This document shows, piece after piece, positions 325 through 8,735 of a stretch of 32,314 bases of DNA (the first letter of the stretch is position 1; each line of letters begins with the position of its first letter). Position numbers and translations under genes: made by a program. Location of the stretch: assembly GCA_013332095.1 (NCBI GenBank), contig JABENI010000019.1:1-32314 (forward strand), read 5' to 3'. Source of the DNA: Candidatus Bathyoplasma sp. NZ. GTDB taxonomy: Bacteria > Bacillota_I > Bacilli_A > MAG-NZ. The notes beneath the pieces were generated by a model. That model did no database searches, was not told where the DNA came from, and saw only the letters and a program-made list of their open reading frames with translations.

Positions 325-336
325 CCCTAGATATAT

Positions 337-371
337 TATAATATAGATGGTAAAATATGTAAAGGCAGGAG
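337..371 (+). promoter_or_regulatory. Promoter -10 and RBS of the Csn2-like gene
   Basis: A perfect TATAAT lies at 337-342, only 12 bp after the last CRISPR repeat, with no convincing -35 box. AGGAG at 367-371 is 6 nt before the ATG at 378. The gene therefore probably has its own promoter rather than depending only on read-through from the array. The same AT-rich stretch would be the leader if the array were transcribed leftwards. Confidence 0.5.
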
Positions 372-377
372 AAAAAA

Positions 378-1358
378 ATGAAAATTGAATTCGAAATAGA
401 TAAAAAGTATAAAACTATTGACTTGCAATCTGTAAACTTAATTTACGGTGGAAATTTGTCAGGTAAAACAAAATTGATTGAAATTTTAAACGCAGGATTA
501 ACTGGTAAAACAAAAGAATTCTTCTTAACAGAAGGCACTATTGTCAACAAAAGTGAATATGCTGTTCACTACATAAACACATACAATCTTTCTGATGAAA
601 TTAAACTTAAAACTAAGAGCAGTGTATTAAAGTTATTAAACAATGAATTTTTTGATGATCATCTGGAGGATTTAACAGACAAAATTTCAAAAATTAATGA
701 ATTCTTATTTGAGTGTGAAGGAGAATTAAATAATAGCGAATTAAATATCTCAAATGAATTGACCTTGGCGAATTATAATTATCGTTTGAATATCGCAGAT
801 GTCAAAGATTTAATTACCTTAGCACTAACAATGGACTTTGAAAGTCAATCTTCAGCAATACTACAAGAATTTATTATCAAACTTTTAGTTAAAAATATTG
901 ATAGAGGTAAAAAAAATATTTTTTTAATCGATGATTTTGATTCATTTTATAGTGATAAACTAGTAAAAAAAATGTTAGACTTTTTTAAAAGCAGTGAATG
1001 TATCTTCGTGTTAACTTCTAATAAATACAGTTCTTTTAAATATACTGATGATATTTTGGTAATGGATACTGAATTGAAAGTTTTTGATTTAGATAAATTA
1101 TTAACACAATCGATAATGGAGTTCGAATATCATAAAGAGAAGAGCAATATCAGTTTTGAACTTTTTTATGAAGAAAATAAAAATATTTTGTGTGATGATG
1201 ATTTGATTTTTTATAAAAAGAAAATCAAACCTTATATTGATTTAATCGGTAATGTGTACGTAAATAAATATTCAATGGAAGAAATTACTGATATTTATAA
1301 AATTGATGATAAATTTTTACAAATACTATTAAATAATTTATTTGGAAAAAAGGAATAA
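378..1358 (+). CDS. csn2: Csn2-like CRISPR adaptation protein with intact P-loop
   Basis: Predicted 326-aa P-loop protein next to a CRISPR array. Csn2 is the type II-A accessory protein that forms DNA-binding rings and helps spacer acquisition with Cas1-Cas2 and Cas9. The order of elements resembles streptococcal Csn2: a short N-terminal strand beginning MKIEF, the P-loop region, a central helical part with an LFECEGEL segment (about 110-117, compare VFECLENEL in streptococcal Csn2), a helical domain, then a KKNIFLIDDFDSF strand (178-190) and a second core strand ending VLTSNK. Residues 240-326 form an extension, as in long Csn2 forms. Unlike known Csn2 proteins, whose nucleotide site is degenerate, this one has a full Walker A (GGNLSGKT, 24-31) and a Walker B-like LIDD (183-186). 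No other cas gene is in the window. The alternative is an unrelated AAA/ABC-type ATPase. The assignment rests on remembered sequence patterns and context. Confidence 0.62.
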   Translation: MKIEFEIDKKYKTIDLQSVNLIYGGNLSGKTKLIEILNAGLTGKTKEFFLTEGTIVNKSEYAVHYINTYNLSDEIKLKTKSSVLKLLNNEFFDDHLEDLTDKISKINEFLFECEGELNNSELNISNELTLANYNYRLNIADVKDLITLALTMDFESQSSAILQEFIIKLLVKNIDRGKKNIFLIDDFDSFYSDKLVKKMLDFFKSSECIFVLTSNKYSSFKYTDDILVMDTELKVFDLDKLLTQSIMEFEYHKEKSNISFELFYEENKNILCDDDLIFYKKKIKPYIDLIGNVYVNKYSMEEITDIYKIDDKFLQILLNNLFGKKE

Positions 1359-7942: not shown

Positions 7943-8735
7943 AGAAGTGATAAGTAAACTTAATCAAGCGTTAGAACTAGGGAAAAAAGTAGCATTTGTG
8001 ACACTGACTGAAGAAAATGGCAGTTCACCGGGTAGAGTAGGGGATAGTATTTTAGTTTATGAAGATGGGACATTAGTTGGAACTTGCGGTGGAGGATTGT
8101 TAGAACATACTATTCAGACAAAGGCTTTGGCTTGTTTAAAAAATGAGGAGAGTACAGAGTTTTCCATCAATTTAAAGGAAATTGGGATGAGTTGTGGTGG
8201 AAGCGTTAGAGGATTTATTGATTGTCGAAACAGAACAACTAACTTATTAGTAATTGGTGGCGGACATTTAGGGAAGTACATTTACCAATTCAGTCAAATA
8301 TTAGGTTACTCAGTAACGATAATGGATGACCGTGAACAATATGCTAATAGTGAGAGATTTCCTAATGCTAAAATTATTTGTGGTGACTATGGAAAAGTTT
8401 TTACAGGTAAAAACTATGCTGATAGTTATATAATTATCGTTTCTAGAGGGCACGGTACCGATTATGTTGCTTTAAAATCTTTAATTAAAAAAGATTTTAA
8501 ATATTTAGGACTACTAGGTAGTAAAAGAAAAATTATCTCGCTGTTAGAGAAATTAAAAAAAGATGACATCGATTACAGTAAAATAAATAATTTTTATACA
8601 CCAATTGGACTGAATATTGCGGTAAGTGATCCCGCTGAAATTGCGATGAGTATTTTAGCAGAATTAATGGTAGTTAAAAACAATGGTAAATTAGAACATT
8701 TGAGCAGAGTGGAGGAATCATGTACATTAAGATAA
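7935..8735 (+). CDS. XdhC/CoxI family molybdenum hydroxylase maturation factor
   Basis: 266-aa XdhC/CoxI protein. The family binds molybdenum cofactor, helps to add the terminal sulfur (or here probably selenium) ligand and delivers it to xanthine dehydrogenase-type enzymes. The N-terminal XdhC_CoxI domain has ENGSSPGRVGDSILV (27-41) and GTCGGGLLEHTI (49-60), then MSCGGSV (85-91). The C-terminal Rossmann domain begins VIGGGHLGKY (106-115) and continues with DDRE and SRGHGTDYVALK, ending LLGSKRK...IGLNI. It is a maturation factor and should not be confused with the Fe-S subunit called XdhC in E. coli. It overlaps yqeB by 8 nt and the next gene by 16 nt. Confidence 0.9.
   Translation: MNKEVISKLNQALELGKKVAFVTLTEENGSSPGRVGDSILVYEDGTLVGTCGGGLLEHTIQTKALACLKNEESTEFSINLKEIGMSCGGSVRGFIDCRNRTTNLLVIGGGHLGKYIYQFSQILGYSVTIMDDREQYANSERFPNAKIICGDYGKVFTGKNYADSYIIIVSRGHGTDYVALKSLIKKDFKYLGLLGSKRKIISLLEKLKKDDIDYSKINNFYTPIGLNIAVSDPAEIAMSILAELMVVKNNGKLEHLSRVEESCTLR

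Follow-up and report, generated by a model that had tools for sequence, protein, structure and literature searches.

Csn2 proteins are characterised by a toroidal tetramer that binds the ends of linear dsDNA. Csn2 is essential for immunisation by type II-A CRISPR systems, where it forms a ring around DNA within the Cas1-Cas2-Csn2 complex and is needed for adaptation; a biochemical activity has yet to be found, and the function of the protein "remains obscure" (PMC6620040). The stretch of DNA analysed here (the window, 32,314 bp) carries, next to a CRISPR array, a gene that a first-pass annotation had read as a csn2 homologue, possibly of an ancestral type, with an intact nucleotide-binding site, whose residues the structurally studied Csn2 proteins have lost. 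This raises the questions of whether the protein belongs with Csn2 at all and, if it does, what such a site would be used for.

The csn2 locus and its divided array

The open reading frame occupies positions 378-1358 of the plus strand and encodes a large-type Csn2 of 326 amino acids with an ABC-ATPase-like fold, as judged from the ORF, PADLOC, sequence alignment, an AF2 model, and Foldseek. Its coordinates were exactly those first annotated, and the adjacent array is real: at positions 25-324, on the minus strand, a repeat search found the leader-proximal end of a CRISPR array with five identical 36-nt repeats and 30-nt spacers. The crRNA sense corresponds to the minus strand of the window, in which the repeat reads GATACAGACACATCCCAATTTTGCATAGTCTAAGGC. 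The start of csn2 is separated from the last repeat by 53 bp (325-377), a leader or intergenic region that contains the ribosome-binding site of csn2 (AGGAG, 367-371, plus strand) and, pointing into the array, a sigma-70-like promoter (TTTACA-17-TATAAT, 363 to 335, minus strand). The latter agrees with the consensus at 11 of 12 positions, a kind of match that shuffled sequence overall yielded at least as often in the same promoter search.

The window is the first part of contig C13 of a 1.82-Mb genome in 44 contigs, and the array is broken by the contig end. A search of the whole genome returned the repeat of this array at one further place only, the end of contig C14, where approximately 40 copies are likewise broken by the contig end, giving a total of approximately 45 repeats. 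On C14, the array is adjoined by cas2 (110 aa), cas1 (304 aa), and cas9 (1286 aa), all three confirmed by PADLOC. The natural reading of this shared, broken array is that the two contigs join within it, which results in the gene order cas9-cas1-cas2-array-csn2. Upstream of cas9 lies a tracrRNA-like element with an anti-repeat, hairpins, and a terminator (L009, minus strand, ~8131-8040, or about 8040-8135), and the repeat:anti-repeat duplex amounts to -43.7 kcal/mol. Because the anti-repeat is complementary to the repeat as read on the minus strand, and because the repeats at the cas2 end of the C14 array are degenerate, the leader is most likely located between the array and csn2, with transcription running away from csn2. 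With cas9, cas1, cas2, and csn2 sharing one array (on two contigs, by the inferred join), and a likely tracrRNA with an anti-repeat, the locus is an ordinary type II-A CRISPR-Cas9 locus, of which the gene at 378-1358 is the spacer-acquisition gene. A genome-wide profile search found no second Csn2 in the host genome.

The C14 array contains neighbouring spacers that are identical, forming two duplicated pairs (L009, 1079-1232 and 1673-1826), which points to repeat-mediated duplication. Further along the window, positions 5910-28784 hold a large cluster resembling a selenium-dependent molybdenum hydroxylase and purine degradation cluster, its members being named by eye from the sequence: XdhC- and YqeB/YqeC-like accessory genes, two xanthine-dehydrogenase-like enzymes, and adenine deaminase-like, uracil-xanthine permease-like, and SsnA-like proteins.

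Family membership and predicted fold

The profile searches that had been suggested as a check gave a divided answer. Neither the Csn2 families of Pfam (Cas_Csn2 and Cas_St_Csn2) nor NCBIfam TIGR01866 matched the window protein or any of nine relatives, and only the Csn2 models of PADLOC recognised the family. One of these, PDLC01597, matched all ten proteins, the window protein with an E-value of 1.2e-14. The family is already covered by this PADLOC Csn2 model and is not a new system. When the window protein was used alone, a sequence search of the PDB returned no Csn2 and a scan of 84,980 species genomes found no relative, while a search with a two-sequence alignment returned only two MAGs, both already among the known relatives. 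PDLC01597 gave matches at E <= 0.001 in 8 of 149 nearby genomes, one of them the genome of the window itself and two of them weak. Across the phylum, 18 of 392 genomes had a match at 1e-8, and the strongest match found was a mollicute-code gene (in G392). The window protein is not a lone oddity; it belongs to a widespread branch that includes genomes using the mollicute code (TGA = Trp). The expected linkage was confirmed, in that all CRISPR-type relatives examined adjoin an array or cas genes. Among the candidates, the weak PDLC01597 matches, with E-values from approximately 1e-7 upwards (L036 to L054 and others like them), resemble ordinary ABC ATPases, and L061, L063, and L064, which had no CRISPR nearby when examined, were dropped as relatives. 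L065 was retained despite its place in the weak-match group, as it is flanked by cas9-cas1-cas2 and an array.

The AF2 model of the window protein, calculated from a ten-sequence alignment, is of moderate confidence (pLDDT 76.7, pTM 0.71) and follows the element order of ABC proteins: N-terminal strands, the P-loop (24-31) running into a helix (30-41), a long helical arm (68-123), a helix beginning at S158, and the Walker B strand (179-184). Comparison with the PDB by Foldseek placed Stu0660, the large Csn2 of Streptococcus thermophilus (3zth; PF16813, Cas_St_Csn2), first with an E-value of 8.9e-9, and five of the top six structures were Csn2 proteins (3zth, 3toc, 6qxf, 3v7f, and 9h72), followed by ABC transporters and the Gabija protein GajA with slightly weaker E-values. 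The TM-scores against solved Csn2 structures were modest (0.33-0.53). A second model was made of the relative L059, which has the textbook Walker B of ABC ATPases, IDEP; its first match was also 3zth (E 1.3e-9). As modelled, the window protein has a Csn2 fold, with Csn2 ranked before any unrelated ABC/AAA family, and the structure search and the CRISPR linkage together support the view of an ancestral-like Csn2 homologue with an intact nucleotide site. The LFECEGEL stretch, which had been put forward as a Csn2-like mark, is not conserved in the relatives.

Stu0660 is similar in size to the window protein (~350 versus 326 aa), and both extend an ABC-like core by an additional helical part at the C-terminus, but there is no detectable sequence-profile similarity between them. 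The canonical short Csn2 proteins (PF09711; 3toc, 3qhq, 3s5u, and 6qxf) also match in fold and fill the same role beside cas9-cas1-cas2, but they measure only ~220 aa. Profile alignment with hhalign was not significant for either canonical Csn2 (probability 9.9) or St-type Csn2 (probability 11.6), and therefore sequence alone is no proof of common descent. Common descent with known Csn2 rests on fold, size, gene position within the locus, and the Cas1 tree described below.

The nucleotide site and its decay in related loci

Alignment located the Walker A motif GGNLSGKT at residues 24-31 (G24-G25-N26-L27-S28-G29-K30-T31; 447-470, plus strand) and the Walker B motif LIDD at residues 183-186 (L183-I184-D185-D186; 924-935, plus strand), numbered exactly as in the first-pass annotation. 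To these, the alignment and the AF2 model add S158 (849-851, plus strand), a serine that opens the helix ahead of Walker B and corresponds in position to the ABC signature motif. In ABC ATPases, the signature-motif serine at the equivalent position contacts the gamma-phosphate across the dimer. A GxxxxGK[ST] motif occurred in 0.4% of shuffled versions of the window protein. In an alignment of ten sequences, chosen by homology and not by motif, only eight columns are invariant (G29, K30, G43, L77, N107, S158, I184, and D185), and the chance of finding at least three of the five Walker positions among them is ~1e-4 by a simple hypergeometric calculation, which ignores neighbouring-column effects. 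In a wider alignment of 14 Walker-A-bearing proteins, the fully invariant positions are reduced to G29, K30, S158, D185, and L77; the invariance of G29 and K30 is partly due to the selection of members, that of S158 and D185 is not. The relatives with these invariant site residues are ~19-27% identical to the window protein.

The position after D185, where active ABC ATPases have the catalytic glutamate, is variable: among the 14 proteins it is D in seven, E in only two, Q in two, C in two, and G in one. The window protein has D186, whereas the mollicute-code members L055 and L109, which like the window protein keep Walker A (GNNNSGKT and GDNNSGKT), have a glutamine (IDQP). RecF/SMC/Rad50 and OLD/GajA/AriA ABC ATPases, which have the catalytic glutamate and are not linked to CRISPR, show Walker A, Walker B, and the signature-position serine in the same order and secondary-structure context as the window protein, but their matches to it are partial and weak. 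The window protein thus possesses the ABC-type Walker A (G29/K30), Walker B (D185), and signature-position (S158) residues and lacks the catalytic glutamate. Because this last position varies, the earlier suggestion that the protein may hydrolyse ATP is weaker than the suggestion that it binds ATP: binding is predicted to be conserved, and hydrolysis is possibly slow or absent. Judged by these residues, the simplest reading is that selection acts on the binding and sandwiching of ATP, and that hydrolysis is optional or slow.

Other loci show the site in different stages of decay. In L113 (GTNNSKKS) and L114 (GPNDSKKS), Walker A is damaged and the equivalents of S158 and D185 are kept. The csn2 gene of G192, which is split over two contig ends (L056 on C38 and L057 on C36), has a damaged P-loop (GENNTYKK) and a glutamate in place of the Walker B aspartate. 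In L116, the P-loop is lost, the signature serine is replaced by asparagine, and the Walker B aspartate by arginine, while L065 and the St-type L067 have lost Walker A, the signature serine, and the Walker B aspartate. In these last four cases (G192, L116, L065, and L067), loss of Walker A is accompanied by loss of the Walker B aspartate and, where readable, of the signature serine; the three usually decay together, with L113 and L114 as exceptions. Among canonical short Csn2 proteins of the same class, Walker A is present in 0 of 23 full-length proteins; it is likewise not kept in St-type Csn2 of this class, and solved Stu0660 has a degenerate relic, GQNNELKY, in its place.

Canonical Csn2 is too divergent to align, and a Cas1 tree was used in place of a Csn2 tree. 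A fully supported split (100/99) separates the canonical loci from the window-type loci and the St-type locus (the type of Stu0660), and on this second side the state of Walker A changes five times. Because P-loop proteins had Walker A ancestrally and would not easily regain it once lost, the intact motif is best read as retained, with repeated loss elsewhere. Alternatively, a separate small ABC/RecF-like ATPase might have replaced Csn2 independently, so that large and small Csn2 would be separate ABC captures. It would explain why sequence profiles tie the branch to ABC, RecF, Rad50, AriA, and GajA-like ATPases and not to canonical Csn2, and it agrees with the complete separation of the window-type branch from canonical loci in the Cas1 tree. 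However, the best PDB fold matches are Csn2 proteins, with full-length Stu0660 first for two separate models, the St-type locus groups with the window-type branch in the tree, Stu0660 still carries its P-loop relic, and there are intermediates from intact to erased sites. We therefore consider independent recruitment unlikely.

A possible ATP-controlled step in spacer capture

The reading that we favour, with a probability of roughly two in three, is that the window protein is an ATP-binding large Csn2 in the ancestral state, which would act in spacer capture as a nucleotide-controlled DNA clamp, a function that we infer from the site and the locus. ATP or ADP could also be held permanently as a cofactor for fold stability, with no regulated cycle, in a protein that works like canonical Csn2. 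Such a role would tolerate the varied residues at the catalytic position (D, E, Q, G, and C), as well as the several independent losses of Walker A in genes that are still CRISPR-linked, but the invariant serine at the signature position fits a sandwich between subunits and fits a buried cofactor less well, which makes a purely structural site rather improbable. The motif could, finally, be a relic without function that has not yet decayed, with nothing bound; this might be argued from the decayed sites in L116, L065, and G192 and from the broken csn2 genes of L110 and L112, but is very improbable, as the invariance of G29, K30, S158, and D185 at ~19-27% identity needs purifying selection.

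According to the clamp model, the window protein would most likely bind ATP, with two subunits sandwiching the nucleotide between Walker A and B of one and S158 of the other. This sandwich may drive the assembly or closure of a Csn2 ring on linear double-stranded DNA, coinciding with the capture and holding of a prespacer by Cas9-Cas1-Cas2-Csn2, and release would follow nucleotide loss or slow hydrolysis. Hydrolysis would probably be slow or serve release only, because the catalytic glutamate is an aspartate here and is varied in relatives. The solved and canonical Csn2 proteins would then be descendants in which the same clamp has become constitutive and no longer needs a nucleotide. The broader proposal, that spacer acquisition has an ATP-gated step in the whole type II-A branch, with Csn2 as an ATP-sandwich clamp in a nucleotide-dependent ancestral state, is tentative, and we put it slightly below even odds. 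If the site is used, spacer capture may be ATP-dependent in bacteria of the window-type branch, and the selected nucleotide site offers an experimental handle on the steps of this process. The intact, damaged, and erased P-loops in orthologous loci may be seen as missing links between an ABC ATPase and the inactive Csn2 ring. A literature search, whose coverage left out several key Csn2 papers, found no description of a Csn2 with an intact Walker A. The nearest source found, a survey of type II systems in mollicutes, includes csn2 in its lists but does not take up its ATP site in the passages found (PMC6882279).

The position of csn2 relative to the array differs between relatives. In L018, L019, L058, L060, L021, and L056 (which holds the N-terminal half of the split gene of G192), the repeat reads away from csn2, and a gap of 50-90 bp separates the start of the array from the gene's 5' end. 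In these loci and in the window (325-377), csn2 and the CRISPR leader are divergent across a shared gap, and therefore every new spacer in this sub-branch would be inserted beside the start of csn2. The usual order is seen in L020, L109, L110, and L116, where the array lies at the 3' end of the gene, and in L059 and L022 the repeat, judged by its sequence, appears to read towards csn2. The csn2-leader-array block of the window is inverted compared to L018 and L019, and in L110 (G476) and L112 (G396) the array is still present beside the broken csn2 gene.
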